Part shown: positions 55 through 32,677 of the stretch, piece after piece | Numbering within the stretch: the first letter of the stretch is position 1 | Layout of the letters: each line of letters starts with the position of its first letter | Source: Phycisphaerae bacterium | GTDB lineage: Bacteria; Planctomycetota; Phycisphaerae; Sedimentisphaerales; Anaerobacaceae | Reading direction: 5' to 3' | Length of the DNA stretch: 64,000 nucleotides | Assembly (NCBI GenBank): GCA_017993835.1 | Contig: JAGOLX010000005.1 | Span: 8,019-72,018, forward strand | The notes under the pieces: model-generated | Database searches by the model: none | Seen by the model: only the letters and a program-made list of their open reading frames with translations | What the model was told of the DNA's origin: nothing | Translations under genes and position numbers: made by a program

Positions 55-95
55 TCTTCGAGGGCGGTGGATGGTCTGGTAGGCGTGAGCCCTCG

Positions 96-1466
96 CTATG
101 GTGCCGGTTTCTCGACGAGCCCCCGTTCGCGTCGCAGGCGGTTGTCCCGCTCGATCACCTTGCGGAACTGGTCATCGTTGAGCCATTCCACGTGGGTATC
201 GAGGAACAGGACGTTGCGGCCTCCTTCGTGGTCCTGCTTGCAGTAGACCATGATCATGTCGGGGCTCGCGGCCACCTCGACCAGATCGACGCCGCGGTAG
301 GTGAAGGGGACGCCCGCGCTCGGGTCGTCGTGCTTGCCCTCGCAGCGGAGACCGCGAGGAGTCATCTCTACCGTTTTGATGAGAATTTCGAGGTTGGGCG
401 GCAGCTTGTCCTCGTAGTCGTTGGCATAGATCAGGATCGCCTTGCCCAGGCCGCTGAGGTTCGTTGCACATCGGATGCGGGACGCTGTCGCCTTCAGGCG
501 GATCGTCGCAGGCGCGACGAGGTCGGCCGCCAGGCGCATGCACTGTCCGGCGTCCAGCGACAGGCGGGAGACACTGCCCTGGGCGGTCGGGGTCAGCATG
601 GCCAGCGATGCCTGGAGGTTGGGAACCATCTGCTGGAGGGCGGGGATCTGTCCGACCCGCTGCCAGAGGCTCGCGACGAACCGCCCAAGGGCCGCGGCGG
701 ATTGCTCGTCCGACGCCTGGATGTGCAGCCCGATGGCCGGCTTGGGCGGCAGGTTGACCGCCAGCGACGCCCACTGCAGGCCGGTGGCGATGGCGTTGCC
801 GTCTGCCTGGATGCCGTTGCCGTCCAGCAGGGACGGGAGCATGGCGCCGAGGATCTCGCGGGCATCCCGGTTGGGCACGAGAAACACCTGGAAGGCGGCC
901 TGGGGCACCGCACCGACCGCCTGGTCGAGGGCCGGCAGAGCAACCGGCGCGGTCTTGGCCCATCGCTCGACCACGTGCGGCGGGCCGAACAGCAGGAAGT
1001 TCTGCTTGCGGACCTGCGACAGCTCGCTCAAGCCGCGGTCTCGGGCGAGGCTGTTCACCCAGTCTTTGAGGACGCTCGCGTCCGTCTTGGCCGTGGTCGG
1101 AATCGCCACCAGGAACGCGGGCAGATCGGTCGTGCTCCACAGGACGTAGAGGGTCTCGCCGCCGGCGGCCTTGAAGGCGTCGATGCGTTTCTTCATCGCC
1201 TGGCGAGCCCGGCCGGAGGGGCTCTTGAGATCCGCCAGTTGCCCAGCGTCCAGGTATCTCGAGGCGGCCTGCGCCGCGGTCTCGAAGAAGGCGTCCGCGT
1301 CCATCCGCGACAGATCGATCCTCGCGACCGCGAACGTCTGCTCGTCGAGACAGGGCGCCAGGAATTGGCTCAGGCTCGTCGCCTGCCCGAGGGCCGATCC
1401 CGTCGGGCCGGCCGAGAGGGCAACCAGCGCGAGTCCCGTCAGCAAGTGAATTCGATTGTGAATCAT
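96..1466 (-). CDS. Exported protein of unknown function with C-terminal H-X9-D motif
   Basis: A 456-residue protein beginning MIHNRIHLLTGLALVALSAG, a clear Sec signal peptide with likely cleavage after ALGQA. The ATG at 1466 is chosen because AGAGGAG lies 8 bases upstream; a longer open frame extends into the neighbouring gene but has no such support. The middle contains no motif I recognise. The last third reads like a planctomycete DUF1559-type tail (an ILIYANDYEDKLPPNLE stretch, then HEGGRNVLFLDTHVEWL), that is the H-X9-DG signature with T in place of G, although the protein has no prepilin N-terminus. It is the last gene of the minus-strand sigma/anti-sigma operon, 29 bases after the previous stop. 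Function unknown; it probably acts in the periplasm or at the cell surface. Confidence 0.75.
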   Translation of the reverse strand: MIHNRIHLLTGLALVALSAGPTGSALGQATSLSQFLAPCLDEQTFAVARIDLSRMDADAFFETAAQAASRYLDAGQLADLKSPSGRARQAMKKRIDAFKAAGGETLYVLWSTTDLPAFLVAIPTTAKTDASVLKDWVNSLARDRGLSELSQVRKQNFLLFGPPHVVERWAKTAPVALPALDQAVGAVPQAAFQVFLVPNRDAREILGAMLPSLLDGNGIQADGNAIATGLQWASLAVNLPPKPAIGLHIQASDEQSAAALGRFVASLWQRVGQIPALQQMVPNLQASLAMLTPTAQGSVSRLSLDAGQCMRLAADLVAPATIRLKATASRIRCATNLSGLGKAILIYANDYEDKLPPNLEILIKTVEMTPRGLRCEGKHDDPSAGVPFTYRGVDLVEVAASPDMIMVYCKQDHEGGRNVLFLDTHVEWLNDDQFRKVIERDNRLRRERGLVEKPAP

Positions 1467-1495
1467 GGCACTTCTCCTCTTAAAAAGGTCGCTGG

Positions 1496-2959
1496 TCATC
1501 TCGCACGGGGTCGCACGGTGATCTCGTACCGCGTCCCCCATCGTGCATTCTCTCCCGGCGGGACCGGGCTTTCGAGGATCCCCTTGCCGTCGGCCACCCG
1601 ATAGCTGAACGGACGGCCGTACAGGGGATCCAGGGGGATCGGCACTTCCACAATGTCGTCGAGCGACTTCGGCAAGGCGTCCTTGTGTCCCGCCGCATAC
1701 AGGCGGATCGCCTCCACACAGCGGAGCATCGCGATATCCCGCTCCCGGCACGTCCCTGCGAAGAGCGTCCAGCGGAAATAGGGCATATTGTTGGCGAAGA
1801 CGAGCGCAATCACGTCCCAGTCGGACTGGATCCGGCCCATGCCCTCCTGCCATACCTTTTCATCGGCCTTCAGGCCGCCGGCCGCCTGCCAGTACGGGAC
1901 ATGGCACCATTTGAGCATCATGTCGCGCAGGCGGCAGGCCCGCTCATGCTGGTAGACCAGCACGACGTACAGGTTGGGCAGGGACTCGATCTCCTGGATC
2001 GTCTTGCCCTGGTCCAGGAGGTGCTGCCTGGCCATCGGATAGAGTTTCATGGCGCTCGTGACGATCGCGAGCTTCGCGGCGGTCTGCTCCAGGTCGCCGG
2101 GGCCGGGCGCAATGGCGCCCGCCGCCTTGTTCCAGATCCGCATCACTTCGTCGTTCGTGAGGACCTCGTTGTCGACGCGCTTCAACTCGGGCAGATCGAT
2201 GTAGACCGCGCCGCTCTCCGCCTGGAGCGACAGGCGCATGTCGATCAACGGAGAGGGCAGCGCCGTCAACGCCCAGTACAGATTCGGCGCGCTGGGCTGC
2301 TGGACGAAGCCCTCGATCTCGCGTATTGCCCGCCCGGCCAGGCCGTAGCCCACCGCATTCTGGAGGCTCAGCGGCCCGGTGCCCACGTCTTTCGCCATGG
2401 CCAGCATGATTCGCAGGGTCTGGATCGCGCCCGGGAAGTCGCGGTCCGCGGCCTGAAGGCGGACCTTCAGTGCCAGGACCCGCGAGAGCATTCGATACCC
2501 GGACCAGTCCGGCGTTGCAGCGCGGAGCCCTTCCTCGCGGATTGCGAACTCCCATGTGCACTGTTCGCTGCGACCGGCCAGGTCGAGGTAGTGGATTGCC
2601 TGGTCGAACATCTTCAGAGCGCGCCGGACCTCCTGCTGGGGCAATTGGTCCACGGGGCTCTCGATCCACTCATCCAGCTTGTGCTCGTCGATGTCGGGCC
2701 ACTTGCTCTGGACCTGGGCGGCCAGCGACACCGCGGTCTGATACAGCGTTACGCCGTTGCCCGCTCGCTGTTCCTGGTACGGCGTCTCCAGACGCCAAGC
2801 CAGCGCCCGCGCGGGCACCGGGCTCGGATCGATCTGCAACGGGACCGTGCGGATCGTCTCTTTCGGGGGGGTGCCGGCGTCTTGCGATCGCGCCGACGGC
2901 GTCGAAGCCGCCAGCAGAATCGTCGCGACCGCCACAAGATAGTGCAGTCTGGGGGTCAT
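1496..2959 (-). CDS. Exported lineage-specific protein of unknown function
   Basis: A 487-residue protein starting MTPRLHYLVAVATILLAAST with a signal peptide ending near SARSQ. The ATG at 2959 has AGGGAGA about 7 bases upstream. The mature part is mostly helical by composition (many LxxAxxL stretches such as LRRALKMFDQAIHYLDLAG-like segments), without transmembrane helices or a catalytic motif I recognise. It sits between the anti-sigma-like gene (72 bases upstream) and the exported H-X9-D protein downstream, so it is probably cotranscribed with the sigma factor. Large exported proteins of unknown function next to ECF sigma/anti-sigma pairs are common in planctomycetes; the function here is not deducible from sequence. 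Confidence 0.7.
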   Translation of the reverse strand: MTPRLHYLVAVATILLAASTPSARSQDAGTPPKETIRTVPLQIDPSPVPARALAWRLETPYQEQRAGNGVTLYQTAVSLAAQVQSKWPDIDEHKLDEWIESPVDQLPQQEVRRALKMFDQAIHYLDLAGRSEQCTWEFAIREEGLRAATPDWSGYRMLSRVLALKVRLQAADRDFPGAIQTLRIMLAMAKDVGTGPLSLQNAVGYGLAGRAIREIEGFVQQPSAPNLYWALTALPSPLIDMRLSLQAESGAVYIDLPELKRVDNEVLTNDEVMRIWNKAAGAIAPGPGDLEQTAAKLAIVTSAMKLYPMARQHLLDQGKTIQEIESLPNLYVVLVYQHERACRLRDMMLKWCHVPYWQAAGGLKADEKVWQEGMGRIQSDWDVIALVFANNMPYFRWTLFAGTCRERDIAMLRCVEAIRLYAAGHKDALPKSLDDIVEVPIPLDPLYGRPFSYRVADGKGILESPVPPGENARWGTRYEITVRPRAR

Positions 2960-3031
2960 AGTCAGTCTCCCTTGCTCATGGATGTGAGTCAGAACTCTTC
3001 AGGGATGGTCCCTACGAAACAAAGACCGCGG

Positions 3032-3487
3032 TCAGGTCGATGATAGAATCTTCTCGATGTTGTCCCTCGTCCACGGCTCCTCCTGCCCGGACACCGGACG
3101 CGGCGCCAGGGGCGGCAGGGCATCCAGACCCCGATCCCGCACCAGGCGGCGCAGACGCAGGTAATTCGCGAGCGAGTCGCTCTGTCGCAGGCGCAGCGAG
3201 TCGCGAAACTCCGCCGGGAATACCGACGGTGCGGCGCGGTCCGTCGCGATGGCTGTGGGACTCGGGCCGATGTCCGTCATGTGGGCCCCAGGCCGCAAGA
3301 CGAGGACGGCAATCACAACCGCCAGGCAGCAGGAGACTCCCTGCCATGCCCAGCGCTGTCGGCGTCCCGACGCCTGTCCGGCCAGGAACATGACCCGGTC
3401 GCGATTCGCGGATGGAGTCACCGGTCGCAGGCCGCCCAGCAGGGTCTCCAGCTCTCTCTCGGCGGGTGTCAGTCTTTCGTCTTGCAT
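3032..3487 (-). CDS. Anti-sigma-factor-like single-pass membrane protein
   Basis: A 151-residue protein with a charged N-terminal cytoplasmic part (about 1-45, containing TPAERELETLLGGLRP), one transmembrane helix (about 48-64, GVSCCLAVVIAVLVL) and an extracytoplasmic tail. Its start lies inside the 3' end of the ECF sigma gene (19-base overlap), which implies translational coupling and a fixed ratio of the two proteins. The topology and position are those of an anti-sigma factor, but I do not see the zinc-binding HxxxCxxC motif of the ZAS family, so the call rests on context. It would hold the sigma factor at the membrane until a signal is received. Confidence 0.6.
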   Translation of the reverse strand: MQDERLTPAERELETLLGGLRPVTPSANRDRVMFLAGQASGRRQRWAWQGVSCCLAVVIAVLVLRPGAHMTDIGPSPTAIATDRAAPSVFPAEFRDSLRLRQSDSLANYLRLRRLVRDRGLDALPPLAPRPVSGQEEPWTRDNIEKILSST

Positions 3488-3969
3488 GGTCGTTCCATCC
3501 TCTCTTTGATCGCGGCCAACGCCGCCTTGTACCGGCTGTGAATCGTGCTGGTCGAACCGCCCACGATCCCGACGATTTGCGCCAGCGAGAGCTGGCCCCA
3601 GATTCGCAGCAGGACGACCTCGCGCTGGGGTTCGGGCAAGGTCTCCAGGATCTCCTGGGCCCGGCGTGCGTCGATCAGGTCATCGGGCCGGCCCTCGAAC
3701 CACGAAGCCTGCTGTGAGGACAACTGCCGGTCGTGACGTCGGCGACATTGCCTGCGCCGAAGACGCGTGATCGCCTCGTTGCGAACCGTGCGGAACAGCC
3801 AGGCGTGGATGTCCGTCGGCTCCGTCGATTGGCCCATCAGACGCACGAAGGCCGCTTGAACCGCGTCCTGGGCGCCGTCGTGTCCCAGCCAGGCACGCGC
3901 GTACAGCGTCAGCGAGGCACTGTATGCGTCATACCAGACGGCCAACCGATCCGAGTTCATCGCTGTCAT
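3469..3969 (-). CDS. ECF-subfamily RNA polymerase sigma factor
   Basis: A 166-residue sigma-70-like protein. Region 2 spans about 10-75 (WYDAYSASLTLYARAWLG, then DAVQAAFVRLM and IHAWLFRTVRNEAITRLRRR) and region 4 about 105-160 (LETLPEPQREVVLLRIWGQ followed by an HTH that includes TSTIHSRYKAAL). The chosen ATG at 3969 has AGGA 8 bases upstream; an upstream ATG at 4116 would add an N-terminus without sigma similarity, and the ATG at 3960 has no binding site. It overlaps the anti-sigma-like gene by 19 bases and heads a four-gene minus-strand operon that includes two exported proteins. It probably directs core polymerase to an extracytoplasmic-stress regulon that includes itself. Confidence 0.85.
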   Translation of the reverse strand: MTAMNSDRLAVWYDAYSASLTLYARAWLGHDGAQDAVQAAFVRLMGQSTEPTDIHAWLFRTVRNEAITRLRRRQCRRRHDRQLSSQQASWFEGRPDDLIDARRAQEILETLPEPQREVVLLRIWGQLSLAQIVGIVGGSTSTIHSRYKAALAAIKERMERPCKTKD

Positions 3970-4420
3970 GCTGTGTCCTATGGTATCCACCTGTAAGACG
4001 CGCACCGAGGGGATTCTTGCGAGCGAATTGCGGAGATACGCTTCAGAAACAGCCGACCTCCGCGGATTGTCATGCTGAATGCAGTGAAGCATCGGGGCAT
4101 TGGAGGAGAGGTGCAATTCGCGTCCGAATCGGCGTCCCGTTCCTCGGCCGGATGCTTCGCGGTGCTCAGCATGACAAGAGGCTCTGTGCCGTGCCGCGTG
4201 GTCCTTTGCGGTCTCTTCTGAATCGGTAGTAGTGGTACGCCGTCCACGTTAATTCGGTTGGCAGTCTATCGGCATATGGCCTGTTCGGAGTTCCGCGTTC
4301 ACGCGGTCTTGACCCGCCTGAAGGCGGAACTCCAAACGGTGTCCGCCACGTTTGCCCAGTGTTGTAAGATGGACGGCGTAGTAGGGTGCGTATTACGCAC
4401 CATCTTCCTGCGGACGGGGG
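3970..4420. repeat. Gene-free stretch with three palindromic intergenic repeats
   Basis: No coding region is supported. Three inverted repeats are visible. The first is an imperfect pair: GTCATGCTGA at 4070-4079 with GAAGCATC at 4086-4093, mirrored by GATGCTTCGC and TCAGCATGAC at 4151-4175. The second pairs GGAGTTCCGC at 4287-4296 with GCGGAACTCC at 4324-4333. The third is GGTGCGT-ATT-ACGCACC at 4385-4401, 19 bases past the stop of the enolase-superfamily gene, where it may also act as a 3' hairpin. Such elements resemble REP-type repeats scattered in many bacterial genomes. Confidence 0.6.
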
Positions 4421-5629
4421 TCAATTCACCCTGTGGGTGACGATGTACTGCCAGTCGAGTTCCAGGCCCATGCCGGCGATCTGGGGGATCGCGACGAAGC
4501 CCTGCTCGTCGGGCACGGGTTCCGCGGTGGTTCGCCCGGGACGGATCTGCGCCTCGCGCGACAGGGACGAGACCTCGACATATTTGACGACCGATTCGGA
4601 GGTGGCCGCCATCAGTTGCAGGTGGGGATAGGCGTCCAGGCCGATGTCGTGCAGCTCCAGCCTGGCGCCGAGCGTTTCGCAGGTGTTCGCCAGTTCGATG
4701 CACGGCGTCAGGCCGCCCAGAGATGCGTCGATCCGCGCAATGTCGCATGCCTTGGACGCGAGCCACACGACGCGAGTCGGATAGGACTCCGCGAGACTCT
4801 CCGGGGCGCAGATCGGCGTCTTCACTTGTCCGGCCAGTGCGCTGTACTGCTCCCGCCAGGCCTCCGTCTCCGGCATGGGCGACTCGAACCACTCGTATTG
4901 CAGCTCGTCGAGGAGCTCGCCCACGCGAAGGGCCTCGTCGAAGGTGTAGGCGCCGCTGTTGTCGGCCATGCACGCGAAGTCCGCTCCCACCGCCTCGCGA
5001 ACCGCCTGGTAGACCTCCATGTCGCGATCGGGGAACCCCTTGCCCTCCGAGCCGGTGGCGCCGATCCCGGAATCCCAGTAGGGTCGGATCTTGCACCCGT
5101 GGAGCCCCGCCTGTTTGCACGCTTGGGCGTATTGGACATATCGTCCTGCGTCGCCCAGGTTGACTTCTGTCGTGATGTAGGCCGGGATCTGCTGCCGCCG
5201 GGAGCCCAGCATCGCGTGGACCGGCTTGTTCTCGACCCGGCCCAGCAGGTCCCACAAGGCGATGTCCACCGCACCCAGAACCCCGAGCGGCAAACCGGCT
5301 TCGTATAGCTCCCGCCAGATCGCACTGGGCAAGTCGATCTGGCGACCCGCGAGCAGACTGCTGACGGCGCGGGCCGTCTGCGCGTCGGGCATCGTCGCGT
5401 CCGACACGTCGGCCCAACCCTGAATCCCGCAGGCTGCGGTGATTCGGACTGCGCAGCGGAGATCGGGCTCATCGCCGGAGGCGGACAGACCCGTCTTGTA
5501 CAGGAACCACTCGATTCGGGAGATGGTGATTGTCTCGCGGATGTTCAGCAGGACGAGAGTGCGAGCCGCCGCGGAGCCGCCCAGGGCCGCCGCCAATCCA
5601 GCGATCTTGAGAAATGATCTTCGATTCAT
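4421..5629 (-). CDS. Tat-exported enolase-superfamily enzyme (mandelate racemase / muconate lactonizing group)
   Basis: A 402-residue protein starting MNRRSFLKIAGLAAALGG, a twin-arginine signal (RRSFLK), so the enzyme is probably exported folded. The ATG at 5629 has GGGCGAGG just upstream. Superfamily features in order: an N-terminal capping domain, a KxR motif (K180, R182 in CKIRPY), metal ligands D223 (MADNSG), E249 (WFESPM) and E277 (CAPES), and a His at 327 (ELHDIG), the likely second catalytic base of the His-Asp dyad. These enzymes abstract a proton alpha to a carboxylate; sugar-acid dehydratases are the usual activity, but the substrate cannot be named. It is a single gene with its own strong promoter. 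Export of a member of this mostly cytoplasmic superfamily is typical of planctomycetes. Confidence 0.85.
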   Translation of the reverse strand: MNRRSFLKIAGLAAALGGSAAARTLVLLNIRETITISRIEWFLYKTGLSASGDEPDLRCAVRITAACGIQGWADVSDATMPDAQTARAVSSLLAGRQIDLPSAIWRELYEAGLPLGVLGAVDIALWDLLGRVENKPVHAMLGSRRQQIPAYITTEVNLGDAGRYVQYAQACKQAGLHGCKIRPYWDSGIGATGSEGKGFPDRDMEVYQAVREAVGADFACMADNSGAYTFDEALRVGELLDELQYEWFESPMPETEAWREQYSALAGQVKTPICAPESLAESYPTRVVWLASKACDIARIDASLGGLTPCIELANTCETLGARLELHDIGLDAYPHLQLMAATSESVVKYVEVSSLSREAQIRPGRTTAEPVPDEQGFVAIPQIAGMGLELDWQYIVTHRVN

Positions 5630-5716
5630 ACCCTCGCCCAAGGCTTCGACCCGCATGGACGTTCGATTCGCTCCGCATCGCATTCAACGGAACACACCCC
5701 AATCGTCTACTACATT

Positions 5717-5745
5717 ATTATAGCACAACGGAGGGCAGAATGCAA
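5717..5745 (-). promoter_or_regulatory. Sigma-70 promoter TTGCAT-N17-TATAAT
   Basis: On the minus strand TTGCAT (5740-5745) and TATAAT (5717-5722) are separated by exactly 17 bases. The predicted start is near 5710, giving a leader of about 80 bases to the enolase-superfamily gene at 5629. Confidence 0.6.
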
Positions 5746-5828
5746 TTCGATTGGGGGCGAGGCTCCAATCCGCGTGCATGACCGCTCTTGTCGTCTCCCG
5801 TGGGGTGACGAGGCATTGTCCGGACTCT

Positions 5829-5946
5829 GTCATTCCTGCGTCAAGCAGGAATCCAGGAACCTTGGGACCAGGCGCGACCTGGGGAGTGGATTCCCGCCCC
5901 CGATCGGGTCGAGGGCAGGCTTTGTGCGGGAATGACAATCCACGGC
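5829..5946. repeat. Two ATTCCYGC palindromes in the 5630-6039 gene-free stretch
   Basis: ATTCCTGC (5832-5839) pairs with GCAGGAAT (5845-5852), and ATTCCCGC (5890-5897) pairs with GCGGGAAT (5936-5943). Both are flanked by TGTC/TCCA or TGGA/TGACA as in the widespread TGTCATTCC repeat of many bacteria; a third copy is at 58321-58350. Inside the second is a 26-base segment (5896-5921) that recurs at 31326-31351. Apart from the promoter at 5717-5745, the rest of the 5630-6039 gap shows nothing coding. Confidence 0.65.
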
Positions 5947-6039
5947 CCCCATGAACCTCCATCGCACGCACGCAAATACGGACATGCACCCCTCCAATCC
6001 AGTCGCGGATCATCATTCCGGCGAAATCGCGAGTCCATT

Positions 6040-6975
6040 TCACGGCCGGTTCCCCGCGATGGCCTCCGCCGATCGCTGGAGCGCCTCCTGCTCCTCGGGC
6101 GCGAGCTTGGCGTCGATGATCCGGACCACGCCGTGCTCGCCGACCACGCACGGGACGCTCAGGCACACGTCGTGGATCCCGTACTCGCCCTTCAGCAGGC
6201 TGGAGACTGTCAGGACGCTGTTCTCGTTCCGCAGGACCGCGCCGGTGATGCGGACAAGCGACAGGCCGATGCCGTAGTACGTCGAGCCTTTGTAATCGAT
6301 GATGTGGTAGGCGGAATCGCGAACCTGCTCGGCGATCTGTTTGTGATACAGTCCGCTGTTGCAGACGCCGCAGATCCGGCAGTAGTCCGAAATGCCGACG
6401 CCGCCGATGTGCGACAGACTCCAGGCGGCGACTTCGCTGTCCCCGTGCTCGCCGATGATGTAGGCGTGTACGTTGCGGGGGTCGATCCCGCAGTGCCGGC
6501 TGAGCATGTACTTGAAGCGGGCGCTGTCGAGCACGGTGCCCGACCCGATCACCCGCTGTCGCGGCCAGCCCAGCGACTCGAGCGCGACGTGTGTCAGCGT
6601 ATCGACCGGATTGGTCACCATCAGGACGACCGCGTCGCTTGCCTGCTGTGCGATCTGCGTGCAGATCGCGCGGACGATCCCTGCGTTCACGCGGATGAGG
6701 TCCGCGCGCGACTGTCCCGGCGCCTGCTTGGCGCCTGCGGTGATGACGATCAGCGACGCGTCGGCGCAGTCTTCATACGTCCCCGCCTTGATCCTCACCG
6801 GCGCCAGGAAGGGCAGTCCGTGCGAAAGGTCCATGATCTCGCCTTCCACGCGGTTGGCGTCGAGGTCGATCAGCGCGATCTCCTCGGCCATGCCCGTCTG
6901 CAGCAGGGCGTACATATAGGTCGTTCCGACCGCTCCCGCGCCGATCACGACCACCTTGGGTTTGCGACAAGCCAT
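6040..6975 (-). CDS. ldh: L-lactate dehydrogenase
   Basis: A 311-residue NAD-dependent 2-hydroxyacid dehydrogenase that interconverts pyruvate and L-lactate. The ATG at 6975 has AGGAG 7 bases upstream. Visible are the dinucleotide site GAGAVG (residues 12-17), the substrate-discriminating loop AKQAPGQSR, whose Gln in the 102 position is characteristic of lactate rather than malate dehydrogenase, the TNPVD segment, and the catalytic IGEHGDSE with its His. Length and motifs match the tetrameric bacterial family. It stands alone, with an enolase-superfamily gene downstream on the same strand behind 410 bases and its own promoter. It suggests fermentative growth, consistent with an anaerobic or facultative planctomycete. 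Confidence 0.9.
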   Translation of the reverse strand: MACRKPKVVVIGAGAVGTTYMYALLQTGMAEEIALIDLDANRVEGEIMDLSHGLPFLAPVRIKAGTYEDCADASLIVITAGAKQAPGQSRADLIRVNAGIVRAICTQIAQQASDAVVLMVTNPVDTLTHVALESLGWPRQRVIGSGTVLDSARFKYMLSRHCGIDPRNVHAYIIGEHGDSEVAAWSLSHIGGVGISDYCRICGVCNSGLYHKQIAEQVRDSAYHIIDYKGSTYYGIGLSLVRITGAVLRNENSVLTVSSLLKGEYGIHDVCLSVPCVVGEHGVVRIIDAKLAPEEQEALQRSAEAIAGNRP

Positions 6976-7468: not shown

Positions 7469-8545
7469 TCACGTGCGCAATTCGCGGGTCGTGCCGGCGA
7501 ATTCCTCAGGGGTCCAGTCGGTGGACAGGGACAGACTCTCCACGCTCGGTTGGGCGGGGGAGGGGGCCGGCTCCATCGGAGCCGCAGATTCGCTGGTGAC
7601 TGAGGCCTGGAGATACGTGGCGAGATTGGCCTTTCGGTTCTTCAGGCTTAGCTTGCGGCGGATGTTCTCACGGTGCCGGCGGACCGTGGCAGGGGAGATG
7701 CAGCGCAACTGGGCGATCTCCTTTGTGGACAGCCCGTTACGGATCATCGTGCTGATCGCGATCTCGACGGGCGTCAGTTGCACGTGGTCCCTGGCGATCT
7801 GGCTGAGGAAGGGGGACGTGATCTCCTGGAGGCTGCGGCGCAACAGCGTCACGTAGGACCGTTGCCGCCCGCTCACCTCGAGCTCCAGCTCGAAGACGAT
7901 CGGCATGATGACCTTCTGGATGTTGGCGGCGACCGAGGCCTTGATGCCGCGCTTTTCCTCCTCCAGTCGGGACAGCACCGCGCGAAGGGCGATGTTGGCC
8001 TCCTGCAGTGCCTGATGCTCCCGCTGAATCGCCCGGTTCGCCTCGCGCAGGTCCGAGAGGGTCTTCATGTGCATCAGAATGGTGCTGATTCGCTCCGCTA
8101 CGTCACGGATCAGGGCGTGTTCCTCCTTAAGGAAGGGGCTCGTTCCCGACGTTGGGACAATCCTGCGGTAGTACACCTCCACGACGCCGGCGGTCCGTCC
8201 GTCCGTCACGATGTCGGCGGCCATCCGCCACTTGGTCTCTGTGAACTGCTCGGTGACATATCGCTTGTCGCCGTAGATCACCCTGGCGCAGGCGTGCTCC
8301 GGGAACTGCCAGCTCTTGGGCAGGCAATCGACGACGCTCTGAAGGAATCTGTCGGGGACGTGGAAGTACATTTCACGAAAGGTGGATATGGTATACAGGC
8401 AATCGAGCTCCTTGATTCGCTCCCGCAGGGCGACTTCGAGTTCGGATTGGGGGGGATTGCCCGCGGTGGCCTCCATCGACGCCAGGCGTTTGTCCAGGGT
8501 TCTTACCTGCTTGATCCGTTGATCACGAGTTGGAGTCTTCGCCAT
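7469..8545 (-). CDS. LuxR-type transcriptional regulator with GAF-like sensor region and coiled coil
   Basis: A protein of about 358 residues. The N-terminal segment (1-60) is charged, a middle region (about 50-170) resembles a GAF-type sensor (ELDCLYTISTFRE, ending in FLKEEHALIRDVAERISTIL), a strong coiled coil follows (about 175-225, rich in REANRAIQREHQALQEAN), and a LuxR/FixJ helix-turn-helix lies near 255-315 (LTPVEIAISTMIRNGLSTKE, then SPATVRRHRENIRRKL). The C-terminal 45 residues are Pro/Ser-rich. The ATG at 8545 is the best start before the charged segment, although its binding site is weak; in-frame starts up to 8593 are possible. It faces the small-gene/gdhA pair across a 378-base gap. 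It has no receiver domain, so its signal is probably a ligand or an associated kinase. Confidence 0.75.
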   Translation of the reverse strand: MAKTPTRDQRIKQVRTLDKRLASMEATAGNPPQSELEVALRERIKELDCLYTISTFREMYFHVPDRFLQSVVDCLPKSWQFPEHACARVIYGDKRYVTEQFTETKWRMAADIVTDGRTAGVVEVYYRRIVPTSGTSPFLKEEHALIRDVAERISTILMHMKTLSDLREANRAIQREHQALQEANIALRAVLSRLEEEKRGIKASVAANIQKVIMPIVFELELEVSGRQRSYVTLLRRSLQEITSPFLSQIARDHVQLTPVEIAISTMIRNGLSTKEIAQLRCISPATVRRHRENIRRKLSLKNRKANLATYLQASVTSESAAPMEPAPSPAQPSVESLSLSTDWTPEEFAGTTRELRT

Positions 8546-8600
8546 TTCGAGTACCCATCTAATGCACATGAACTGAAAGGGACAGAAACCCAATTACCAT

Positions 8601-25962: not shown

Positions 25963-28569
25963 CTACGCGCGGGCGAAATAGCAGACGACCTTCTGTTTGA
26001 AGGCGTCGGCGCTGAGGAAGATGCCTCCGTTGCCGCCGGGGGTCTCGCAGGCGTCGACGACCTTGACCACATCGACCCATTTGCCTGCCTTCGGCACGAA
26101 CTGCAGCAGGCGATTGGGTGAACTCTCGAACAGGTCCGCCCGCAGGTAGTTGTTTCCGCGGTCGGGGAACAAAGCCAGGTAGAGCATATCCGTCTCCACC
26201 AGCTCGTTGAGAAAGTGCGTCCCGAGCGAGACGTCCGGGACGAGGTTCTCGTGCATCTGGACGATCTCGCAGAGGACCGCCGCCCGGTTGACCTCCGCGA
26301 AGGCGACGGGAATGCCGAGGAACGGGTCGCTCGTCCCCCAGCGTCCCGGCCCGAGGTACATCAGGGCGCCGTCCACGAGGGATTCGCAGGCCAGGTTGAT
26401 CTTGCCGAGCAGGCGGGCCACCTCGTAGCGGTCCTGGAGCGACAGGCGGCCATAGAGTGCGGGCGTCACATAGACGAACCGGCTGATTCGCGTGTGCCGA
26501 CTGTGGCCGACGACCGCGCCGCTGGCCTCGATGATTGCATCGGCCCGCGGGACCTCGACCTCCGGCGGGCGGGGTGTCTCCGTCCCCTTGACCGGCAGAG
26601 GGCGGCATTGAACCACGTGAATTCGGTACCGCTCCCGGTCCACGAAATTCAGGGTGAACTCGACGTCGATGGGGTACTCGTAGGCCTGCTGTAGGACGTG
26701 GAGCATCTCTCGCATGTCTTGGACGAACGCCGTCTCGGTCAGCAGGTTGTCGAAGGTGGGCACCCAGACCCTGGCGGCGCTTCCGCCGGCTCCCGGCAGC
26801 GATTCGCTCGCGGAGGCGAACATCTCGACGGGCAGGTCGTTGCTCTCCTTGATGACGTCCAGGAAATGGCCCGACATGATCCGGTTGGCCTGCAAGTCCA
26901 CGTAGTCCACCCGTCGTTGCGCGTACTGACGGACCTCCTCGAAGTTGGCCTCGGGGCGCTTCTGTGGCGCGTTGAGGGCGACGAGCCGGGTGTAGTCGTC
27001 GTCGGAGCGATCCACCGCGCGGGTGCCCAGGCCAAAGACCAGGCGAAGCACGCCCGCCTGGGGGTCGATGCCCTCATTCCAGACGTACGGATTGAACGAG
27101 AACCCGACGCCCGCGGCCTGGGGGAAGTAGTAGCGGCCGTGCATCTCGCCGGAGACCCGCATGACCAGCAGCGCCATCTGCTCGTCGTGGCTGAGCAGAC
27201 CTCGCTGCTCGCGGTAGCGGAGGGCCCGCTCGCTCATCGTGCTGGCGTAGACCGTCCGCACCGCGGAGAGGAAGTCCTCCATCCGGCGTTCCCGCGGCCC
27301 CTGGTTCGGGCAGAAGACGCTCTCGTACTTGCCCGCGAAGGAGTTGCCGTAGTTGTCCTCCAGGAGGGAGCTGGACCGCACGATGATCGGCGACTGCCCG
27401 AAGTAGTCCAGCATCTGCTCGAACTGCTCCAGGATGTGATCGGGGAACTGGCCCTGGAGGATCCGCTGGCGGGCCTGCACGGCGCCTTCGAGGAAGGTGG
27501 CGGGATTCCGCTGCTTCTGACGGAGCCACCAGACGCCGTTGCGGACCAGGTACGTGTAGAACACGTCGGAGCCGACGTAGAAGGAATCCTGCTCTTCCAG
27601 CAGTCCGGCGAAGCGGGCCGAGTGTCGCTTGAGGATGTTGCGGGCGACGAGCATGCCGACCGTCTTGCCGCCGACCAGGCCGGAACCGATCATCCGCTTC
27701 CAGATGTTCAGAACGTCTTCGAGCGACAGGTACCGCGAGACCAGCTTGAGCATGTTCGGGTCTCGCGAAATGGCCATCCGGCTCAGATGGTCGAACGTCT
27801 CCTTCAGCTTCTTCGGGGGACACACTCCGCTGCTGGCGGCGTCGCATATCTGTTGGCCTTCCGTGAACGCCCGTTCCCAGTAGCCTGGACGTGTGTCGGC
27901 GTTTAGATCGGACCAGTTCACCGACGACAGGATGGACGAGATCAGAACGCTCGATGTCACCGGGCGGAACTCGTCGCCGTCCCAGCGATGCAGCATGTTC
28001 ATCGTGGGCGAGTAGCGGAACTGCACCTTGAGCGGGTGGACGTAAAGGGCCTCCGCATGGCGGTAGAGCTCCAGAAAGAGCTGTGTCGTCTCCGTGATCG
28101 GGCGGATGGCTCGGGAACTGTGCGAGTTGCGGAAGAGTGCGAAGTAAGCGACCGTCTCCAGGTCGTAGAGATAGGGACAGGTCAGCATGAAGAAATTGGC
28201 GAGCATCGAGTCCGAGTACCAGTCGGCGGCCAGCTCGGACAGGCAGTCGAAGACATACAGGGCGCCTCGCCCCGCGGTCTCGATCACCATATGGATTCTG
28301 GCAATGAACGTCTCGAAGCCCTCCGCGGGGTCCAGCTCGTGCGTCTCGACCGACCGGCCCTGGAAGACCACTGGCGGGTGACTGGCGAATCGGAAGTAGA
28401 TTACCTTTCGACCCGACCGCAGGCCCGCTTCGACGTAGGGAGCCACCACCGTCATGTAGTCCTCGACCGCATCGACCTGCCAGACGATGTTGTCGCCGGG
28501 GAGGATGCCCTTGAGGGCCTGGTCCAGGCCCGTCAGACCCGTCGTCAGTTCCGCTACGTGGTCGCTCAT
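25963..28569 (-). CDS. PPDK/PEP-synthase ATP-grasp protein with N-terminal degenerate KaiC-like domain
   Basis: An 868-residue cytoplasmic protein. Residues 1-230 look like a RecA/KaiC-type ATPase domain: GLTGLDQALKGILPGDNIVW (11-30) matches the KaiC entry motif, and ALYVFDCLSELAADW (103-117) resembles its Walker B. The P-loop between them, however, is VDAVEDYM with no GxxGxGKT, so ATP binding is doubtful. Residues about 290-670 are a pyruvate phosphate dikinase N-terminal ATP-grasp domain: GLVGGKTVGML (297-307), PIIVRSSSLLEDNYGNSFAG (394-413), and VVQCRPLP near the end of the domain. The phosphohistidine and PEP-binding domains of PPDK are absent; instead a C-terminal region of about 200 residues (GPGRWGTSDPFLGIPV) follows. 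The ATG overlaps the U32 gene's stop by four bases. The reaction is unknown; a regulatory or protein-phosphorylating role is possible. Confidence 0.8.
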   Translation of the reverse strand: MSDHVAELTTGLTGLDQALKGILPGDNIVWQVDAVEDYMTVVAPYVEAGLRSGRKVIYFRFASHPPVVFQGRSVETHELDPAEGFETFIARIHMVIETAGRGALYVFDCLSELAADWYSDSMLANFFMLTCPYLYDLETVAYFALFRNSHSSRAIRPITETTQLFLELYRHAEALYVHPLKVQFRYSPTMNMLHRWDGDEFRPVTSSVLISSILSSVNWSDLNADTRPGYWERAFTEGQQICDAASSGVCPPKKLKETFDHLSRMAISRDPNMLKLVSRYLSLEDVLNIWKRMIGSGLVGGKTVGMLVARNILKRHSARFAGLLEEQDSFYVGSDVFYTYLVRNGVWWLRQKQRNPATFLEGAVQARQRILQGQFPDHILEQFEQMLDYFGQSPIIVRSSSLLEDNYGNSFAGKYESVFCPNQGPRERRMEDFLSAVRTVYASTMSERALRYREQRGLLSHDEQMALLVMRVSGEMHGRYYFPQAAGVGFSFNPYVWNEGIDPQAGVLRLVFGLGTRAVDRSDDDYTRLVALNAPQKRPEANFEEVRQYAQRRVDYVDLQANRIMSGHFLDVIKESNDLPVEMFASASESLPGAGGSAARVWVPTFDNLLTETAFVQDMREMLHVLQQAYEYPIDVEFTLNFVDRERYRIHVVQCRPLPVKGTETPRPPEVEVPRADAIIEASGAVVGHSRHTRISRFVYVTPALYGRLSLQDRYEVARLLGKINLACESLVDGALMYLGPGRWGTSDPFLGIPVAFAEVNRAAVLCEIVQMHENLVPDVSLGTHFLNELVETDMLYLALFPDRGNNYLRADLFESSPNRLLQFVPKAGKWVDVVKVVDACETPGGNGGIFLSADAFKQKVVCYFARA

Positions 28570-31389: not shown

Positions 31390-32622
31390 TCACTTCCGCA
31401 CATCCTGGAGCCAGTGAGAGGCCAGGATATCGAGGTCCAGCCAGTCCACCTTGCCATCGCCGTTGATGTCGCCCGCGATGATCGTATCGGAGACTGGTTC
31501 GCCGAAATAGGATTTGCTCGCCTCGGCGGTCCCGCCGTAGGCGCCCATGTTGATTCGTCCGCCATTGGGGAACGGCTCCAGGCCAATGGGGCTGTTCGGA
31601 TCGCCTGCATCGATGCAGGGGCTCGTCACATTGTCTTGCACCCAGCCGCCAGTGTTCGGGTCCCATCGCCCGGCTTGGGACTTCAGATGGTAATCGCCAT
31701 CGGTCCAGGAAGTGGCACTATTCCAGTGTCCCGGATTCGCGAACAAGGGATCACCCCAGATGCAATCGGTCATGTGGCTCATCAGGTAATCCACGCTAGC
31801 TCCAAATGCGTTGGGATCATCCTCGATCAGACAATTCCTGAGCTCAACGCCGATAGGCCCAATGACGCCAAGACCGGCACGGGAGATCTGATTCCCGCCA
31901 CCCCTTGTTCTGTTGCCGAACAGAATACAGTCGACCAGCGAAATCTTGCCCCAGCGGCCGAGTCCAGCCCGAACACCGCCTCCATATAGAGCGTGATTAG
32001 CATATAGGGTGCAGTTCCGCAAGATTACGTGGCCATCGCCCTCACAGACAAGACCTCCTCCAAGCTGTCTGCTGTTATCTATAGAAAGGGTACGGTTGCC
32101 AGCGATTACACAATTGAACACTACTGTGTCTAAACCACCCAACGCCAAGCCTCCACCTGCGGATGCCGCGTTGCCCACTATGACACAATTCCTGATGGTT
32201 GGACTACTCATCGAGCAGAGAATCCCGCCTCCACCGTAAAGGTACACATATCCTCCAGTGATCGTAAAACCATCTAGAACCGAGTCGGCCTGCTCCCCAT
32301 TGTGGAAGTAGAACCCTCGGTGCCACTCTTTCGAGGACCCCTCAGCATCGATGCTGCAGGTCCCAGGGCCCGCCTCGCTCCTGACAGTGATGGCCTTGCC
32401 GCCAAAGTCGATGTCGCGGTTTCCATCGCCGGTGTAAGTGCCGGGGGCAACCAGGACCGTATCGCCATCGACGCTCACCTCGATGGCCGCCTGGATGGTC
32501 GCGTAGTCGGCCGACCCGTCGTTGGCCACGCGGATCGTCCTGGCCATGCCGAGGGGGCAGGCCACCTGAACAAGGATGCCGACGACCGCCGCGAGATTGA
32601 ATACCACTGTGTCCGCTTTCAT
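31390..32622 (-). CDS. Secreted parallel beta-helix protein with C-terminal dockerin-like repeat
   Basis: A 410-residue protein with an N-terminal signal (MKADTVVFNLAAVVGILVQV). The body (about 30-330) is a right-handed beta-helix of the polymorphic-outer-membrane/pectate-lyase-like type: YATIQAAIEVSVDGDTVLVA, then repeated runs such as GGGILCSMSSPTIRNCVIVG and NCTLYANHALYGGGVRAGLG, ending DAGDPNSPIGLEPFPNG. The final 30 residues hold one dockerin-type calcium loop, GDINGDGKVDWLDLDILASH, widespread in planctomycete extracellular proteins. The ATG at 32622 follows AAAGGAG. No catalytic triad is evident, so it may be a polysaccharide-binding or structural surface protein. Its local GC content is lower than that of its neighbours in the middle section. 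Confidence 0.85.
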   Translation of the reverse strand: MKADTVVFNLAAVVGILVQVACPLGMARTIRVANDGSADYATIQAAIEVSVDGDTVLVAPGTYTGDGNRDIDFGGKAITVRSEAGPGTCSIDAEGSSKEWHRGFYFHNGEQADSVLDGFTITGGYVYLYGGGGILCSMSSPTIRNCVIVGNAASAGGGLALGGLDTVVFNCVIAGNRTLSIDNSRQLGGGLVCEGDGHVILRNCTLYANHALYGGGVRAGLGRWGKISLVDCILFGNRTRGGGNQISRAGLGVIGPIGVELRNCLIEDDPNAFGASVDYLMSHMTDCIWGDPLFANPGHWNSATSWTDGDYHLKSQAGRWDPNTGGWVQDNVTSPCIDAGDPNSPIGLEPFPNGGRINMGAYGGTAEASKSYFGEPVSDTIIAGDINGDGKVDWLDLDILASHWLQDVRK

Positions 32623-32655
32623 ACTCCGCTCCTTTGGATGAATGGATAATGACCG

Positions 32656-32677
32656 CGTGCGACGGATTCGTCGCACG
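32656..32677. repeat. Perfect 9-bp palindrome upstream of the dockerin gene
   Basis: CGTGCGACG-GATT-CGTCGCACG lies 34 bases upstream of the dockerin-gene ATG. It is either an operator or a 5'-leader hairpin. The rest of the 32623-33123 gap holds the repeat at 32923-32996 and no coding region. Confidence 0.45.

Follow-up and report, generated by a model that had tools for sequence, protein, structure and literature searches.

A pseudo-KaiC protein with a PPDK-type ATP-grasp domain belongs to a widespread bacterial family encoded near glutamate dehydrogenase and glutamate synthase genes

What does a protein do that joins a KaiC-like domain without a P-loop to the ATP-grasp domain of PPDK? The question is raised by a gene at 25963..28569 on the minus strand of the window, the 64,000-nucleotide stretch of Phycisphaerae DNA analyzed here, which we found at exactly the coordinates given by an initial annotation of the sequence. 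It encodes 868 amino acids and starts with an ATG, within a 4-base overlap with the U32-peptidase gene that lies upstream. The open reading frame, Pfam matches, an AlphaFold model, and full-length relatives together delimit three parts: a pseudo-KaiC domain, a PPDK_N ATP-grasp domain, and a C-terminal domain carrying GRWG and SxGTHF motifs.

Anatomy of the 868-residue protein

A Pfam scan of the protein placed PPDK_N (PF01326) at residues 298-668 with an E-value of 1.2e-48, found only a subthreshold match to MEDS (PF14417; 15.5 bits, below the cut-off of 29.8) at the N terminus, and returned no match at the C terminus. No PEP-utilizer/PHis or PEP/pyruvate-barrel family was matched at E ≤ 1, no NCBIfam model scored above its own cut-off, and no viral family was matched in PHROGs. 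The AlphaFold model, built from an alignment of 86 sequences, reached a pLDDT of 86 and a pTM of 0.82. Among 86 sequences from more than 10 phyla, more than 80 alignment columns are invariant.

The N-terminal domain (residues 5-217; 27919..28557, minus strand) is a KaiC fold minus its P-loop. In the AlphaFold model, residues 4-217 superimpose on the KaiC CII domain with a VIA Z-score of 20.0 (3.2 Å over 201 residues), and Foldseek matched the domain to FlaH with a TM-score of 0.66 by target length. The structure prediction that had been suggested as a check on the N terminus thus returned a RecA fold. The Walker A motif [GA]xxxxGK[ST], searched for in residues 5-120, was found in none of 88 relatives with a full N terminus, nor in the window protein, so the proposed loss of the P-loop from a KaiC-like domain holds. 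Its expected position is occupied by GDNIVWQVDAVEDY (residues 25-38; 28456..28497, minus strand), in which GDN-VW is nearly invariant according to the alignment and the model. Only two residues separate strand 27-32 from helix 35-51 in the predicted structure, which would leave no space for a P-loop. The Walker-B-like strand that had been noted is retained as a hydrophobic strand at residues 104-109 (28243..28260, minus strand), with Asp108 present in 89/89 aligned sequences.

The ATP-grasp domain (26566..27678, minus strand) is delimited by Pfam, by the alignment, and by its best structural match, the rifampin phosphotransferase 5hv1 (VIA Z 25.6). The NCBIfam model for that enzyme scored 37.7 bits against a cut-off of 999. 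The initial annotation was right to call the domain PPDK-type: the PPDK signature, PIIVRSSSLLEDNYGNSFAG, is present at residues 394-413, and the nucleotide-site residues K302, R398, D635, E637, Q654, and R656 are invariant in all 89 sequences. Because the motifs around R398, D635/E637 (DxE), and Q654/R656 (QxR) align with those of PEP synthase, the protein likely binds ATP, and by analogy the same residues may do here what they do in PPDK. The description of the domain as an orphan is not supported, since it always has a conserved partner on its C-terminal side that carries an invariant His.

This partner (residues 676-868; 25966..26544, minus strand), which we defined by a profile, fold prediction, and relatives, comprises ∼190 conserved residues with the motifs GPGRWG...SxGTHF, and was found solely downstream of PPDK_N in every protein scanned. 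The GPGRWG motif lies at residues 740-745 (26335..26352, minus strand), and R743 and W744 are kept in 89/89 sequences, as are the whole GRW motif, E768, S781, T784, and His785. The last of these, in SLGTHF (codon at 26215..26217, minus strand), is our candidate for a catalytic or phospho-acceptor residue. Among 21 distant members, GR[WF]G is kept (one has GRFG) and the His is retained in all 21 as G[TSA]HF.

The C-terminal domain had been described as unfamiliar, and it is: it is absent from Pfam, and although it was predicted confidently on its own (pLDDT 91.6), Foldseek found no PDB match at E ≤ 0.001. VIA gave only weak matches, with Z at most 5.5, among them DRTGG, RraA, and the PPDK His domain, the last through PPDK residues 388-510, the phosphohistidine-domain region (Z 4.5-4.9). 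With Z under 6, we assign no fold. Many of the matched folds are of the "swivelling" beta/beta/alpha kind, and His785 sits where a helix begins that a strand then follows, a placement like that of the phosphohistidine in PPDK. The model thus leans weakly toward the swivelling domains, including the PPDK phosphohistidine domain, and His785 might have a phosphohistidine-like role. When profiles were compared by hhalign, the C-terminal domain did not match phosphohistidine domains taken from related genomes (probability 0.2%), and Pfam detected neither PF00391 at E ≤ 1 nor the PEP/pyruvate-binding TIM barrel in the protein, in which only ∼190 residues remain after the ATP-grasp domain. The claim that the phosphohistidine and PEP domains are both missing is therefore upheld at the level of Pfam, and is qualified for the phosphohistidine domain by this weak structural leaning.

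Distribution of the family and its exchangeable N termini

The initial annotation saw in the fusion a new architecture. That it is rare is not supported: the three-part protein is widespread, occurring in more than 10 phyla and mostly once per genome. We rejected the possibility that it is peculiar to the window's genome, since 24 of 41 related genomes hold a match, mostly full length, and a scan of a genome collection yielded 145 relatives, of which 80 were kept. These come from Planctomycetota, Geobacter-type and other deltaproteobacteria, Verrucomicrobiota/Kiritimatiellota, Lentisphaerota, Competibacteraceae, Spirochaetes, Omnitrophota, Hydrogenedentes, Fibrobacterota, Elusimicrobia, Clostridia, and others, with taxa as given in public record titles, at least one of which appears mislabeled (L044). 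That record is titled Desulfobacteraceae (UBA2245), holds a 76% identical protein, and looks as if it belonged to the window's own planctomycete genus; its title is probably wrong. The C-terminal domain is present as a single copy in 17/20 genomes holding relatives, and a profile search detected it in 25 of 149 genomes sampled from the window's phylum.

What precedes the PPDK_N and C-terminal domains varies among subfamilies, and may be a pseudo-KaiC domain, a receiver-like domain (PF00072, above its cut-off in L166 and L168), a GAF-like domain (assigned by eye), or a short region of unknown kind. The pseudo-KaiC profile was unrelated to the N termini of the other subfamilies by hhalign. A domain scan showed that the pseudo-KaiC domain is also the input domain of sigma-54 activators, which adjoin split glutamate synthase operons in two genera. 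Because relatives exchange this N terminus for receiver-like or GAF-like modules and because it also heads sigma-54 activators, an input role fits, and the suggestion that it is a sensor gains in plausibility.

The sigma-54 activators (L280:1301-3634, L281:1445-3772, and L308:12067-14382) have the order pseudo-KaiC-GAF-Sigma54_activat-HTH, and a split glutamate synthase operon (Glu_synthase plus GXGXG/GATase) lies a few kb away in L307 (the contig of L280) and in L308. Further variation was seen elsewhere. Two members carry a PF01909 nucleotidyltransferase domain after the GRWG/SxGTHF domain (L154:86-3292(-) and L160:1797-5027(+)), and in L212 tandem members of two subfamilies stand beside a same-strand GDH gene (86-3292(-), 3288-6005(-), and 5096-6604(-)). 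The window's own genome encodes another PPDK_N protein (G000:C2:161623-163053; open frame of 1135 amino acids) in which a His domain precedes PPDK_N, an order like that of glucan water dikinases.

Recurrent linkage to glutamate dehydrogenase and glutamate synthase genes

The initial annotation made no mention of glutamate dehydrogenase (GDH), whose gene proved to be the commonest neighbor of the family. At 80 genome loci, with neighbor identities checked by NCBIfam and Pfam, we found GDH at 37, the small subunit of glutamate synthase (GOGAT) at 18, its large subunit at 13, and the nitrogen repressor NrpR at 12. Where a pseudo-KaiC locus had flanks of 2.5 kb or more on each side, which was so for 42 loci, GDH, GltB, or GltD lay within ∼6 kb in 31, with GDH in 25 of these, and the remaining 11 had none of the three within that distance. 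If a genome of 4-5 Mb has one or two GDH genes and 12 kb is considered per locus, chance would, as a rough estimate, place GDH at well below one of the 42 loci; these loci are not independent, yet their gene orders vary and they include more than 10 phyla. GDH may be upstream on the same strand, divergent, or converging, with or without NrpR between. These data establish a recurrent physical linkage of the family to GDH, GltB, GltD, and NrpR.

Loci of subfamilies with different N termini, fetched as a control, had GDH in 14/19 cases, nearly all adjacent. In a separate sample of the class of a Geobacter-type genome, a downstream converging GDH gene was seen at 9/28 loci with a flank of only 1.5 kb. 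In Parabacteroides distasonis, according to the NCBI annotation, the homologue is divergent from gdhA and a second GDH gene lies four genes further on; a Prevotella homologue has no GDH gene within 8 kb. As a further control, 21 genomes were examined for genes with a phosphohistidine domain (those for PPDK, PEP synthase, enzyme I, and phosphotransferases); of 68 such genes none was near GDH, although fragmented assemblies may hide some. Comparing GDH from genomes with and without the family gene (45 versus 10 sequences, a small sample), we found no positions that separate the two groups. A search of open-licence papers turned up none that connects GDH with proteins resembling PPDK or KaiC.

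The link is looser in the window's own genus, where GDH is 15 kb off or on another contig. In the window, the genome's only GDH gene (PF02812 plus PF00208; 9324..10703, plus strand) lies ∼15 kb from the 868-codon gene. The immediate partner there is the U32 peptidase family gene (PF01136 plus PF12392; 28566..30413, minus strand), conserved in the genus and not kept elsewhere; given the 4-base overlap, the two genes are probably cotranscribed. A LuxR-type HTH regulator gene (7469..8593, minus strand) is divergent from GDH, and the sensor it encodes is homologous (E 9e-33) to the N terminus of the GAF-like subfamily of PPDK_N plus C-terminal-domain proteins, a subfamily that itself adjoins GDH. 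Together with the pseudo-KaiC domain of the sigma-54 activators, this homology means that two different input domains are common to the enzyme family and to likely transcription regulators of glutamate genes. At 31390-32676 (minus strand), the window also encodes a right-handed beta-helix protein whose C terminus bears a dockerin-like repeat (subthreshold).

Possible roles and relation to known systems

We propose, and give roughly even chances to, the reading that the 868-residue protein represents the pseudo-KaiC subfamily within a large group of ATP-dependent enzymes, derived from PPDK and gated by sensors, whose task is to control GDH and, in some lineages, glutamate synthase. The N-terminal module would read a nitrogen, carbon, or energy signal without hydrolyzing ATP and would then set the activity of the rest of the protein. 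The ATP-grasp domain would cleave ATP as PEP synthase and PPDK do, and would either phosphorylate His785 in the C-terminal domain or act jointly with it. GDH or GOGAT would be handed, or would sense, the phosphoryl group or modified state, with a change in activity as the result. The ATP cleavage, the involvement of His785, and the choice of GDH or GOGAT as target are what we infer. In favor of a regulator we count the invariant ATP-grasp residues and His785, the swapped N termini, the GDH/GOGAT linkage, and the sigma-54 activators that share the pseudo-KaiC domain. Against it stand the lack of a profile relation between the C-terminal and phosphohistidine domains, the weak structural matches, the 11/42 loci without such neighbors, the distant GDH in the window's own genus, and the absence of discriminating GDH positions. 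The stronger claim, that a PPDK-derived enzyme with interchangeable sensors is a dedicated covalent regulator of GDH in many bacterial phyla, including gut Bacteroidota, we advance only tentatively.

The gene linkage would also fit a metabolic enzyme using glutamate or 2-oxoglutarate, the main rival to regulation and the less likely of the two. The ATP-grasp and C-terminal domains would, alongside GDH, catalyze a reaction of glutamate, 2-oxoglutarate, or ammonia that depends on ATP, with the N-terminal modules as feedback sensors. PPDK_N relatives act on small molecules (sub-cutoff NCBIfam matches were to rifampin phosphotransferase and to the PigC/RedH ligases), the catalytic residues and the candidate pocket residues of the C-terminal domain (GRW, E768, and H785) are strongly conserved, and GDH or GOGAT is linked in many orientations. 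On the other hand, the N-terminal modules are typical signaling inputs, two of them common to transcription regulators, and the gene is usually single copy beside a complete GDH or GOGAT that needs no such enzyme; we know of no reaction of this type. Both the regulator and the metabolic enzyme predict ATP turnover that depends on K302 and H785, and they differ on whether GDH is modified.

Two other explanations dispense with phosphoryl transfer or with function. The protein could bind GDH/GOGAT or NrpR directly, with ATP occupancy and the sensor setting its affinity, as the linkage to these genes, the sensor modules, and the absence of a classical phosphohistidine signature by Pfam and hhalign would allow; we judge this improbable, since the metal and phosphate ligands D635, E637, and Q654, along with His785, are invariant in 89/89 sequences, which suggests chemistry. 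Least probable by far, and disfavored, is a decayed PEP synthase or PPDK whose GDH linkage reflects incidental co-regulation of nitrogen genes. Loss of the PEP/pyruvate barrel and of a recognizable phosphohistidine domain is what decay would leave, but the family-wide invariant columns argue against it, as does a linkage that recurs in more than one gene order, is shared by subfamilies whose N termini are unrelated, and is not seen for true PPDK/PEPS-type genes.

GDH is a main entry of ammonia into carbon metabolism, and to our knowledge its control in most anaerobes is not known. The neighboring GDH and glutamate synthase genes in many phyla point to an unknown control of ammonia and glutamate handling in bacteria. 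The family now has a role that can be tested and a probable partner, along with candidate catalytic residues and members in Parabacteroides and other cultivable organisms. For the pseudo-KaiC input domain, the sigma-54 activators by glutamate synthase genes are a second context, and what ligand it binds is thereby a well-posed question.

Neither KaiC-like pseudo-ATPases nor PPDK_N are new; for the C-terminal domain Pfam has no entry. Inactivated KaiC domains (iKaiC, including MEDS) are a known kind of signaling domain in archaea and, like the N terminus described here, have a RecA/KaiC fold without a working P-loop and act as input domains of signaling proteins (PMC5847659). The 868-residue protein differs from them in missing the MEDS cut-off, in being fused to an ATP-grasp enzyme, and in being bacterial. 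Like PEP synthase and PPDK, it has the conserved K, R, DxE, and QxR residues in its ATP-grasp domain and an invariant His in the domain that comes next; unlike them, it has no barrel, a C-terminal domain unrecognizable as PF00391, and an extra sensor in front. Rifampin phosphotransferase, the closest structure to its ATP-grasp part, has a rifampin-binding domain that is missing here. The P. distasonis protein divergent from gdhA, WP_041525632.1, has the same ATP-grasp and GRWG/SxGTHF core, but its N terminus resembles tandem receivers rather than a pseudo-KaiC domain; NCBI names it and the family only "PEP/pyruvate-binding domain-containing protein". Dedicated partner proteins that control nitrogen-assimilation enzymes, some of them covalently, include GarA/OdhI, PII, and GlnE; their folds are unrelated to this family, and none is PPDK-derived. 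Should a PPDK-derived enzyme prove to control GDH covalently, it would represent a new kind of nitrogen regulation, another way in which ammonia assimilation is controlled after translation, beside the GlnE/PII and GarA/OdhI types.
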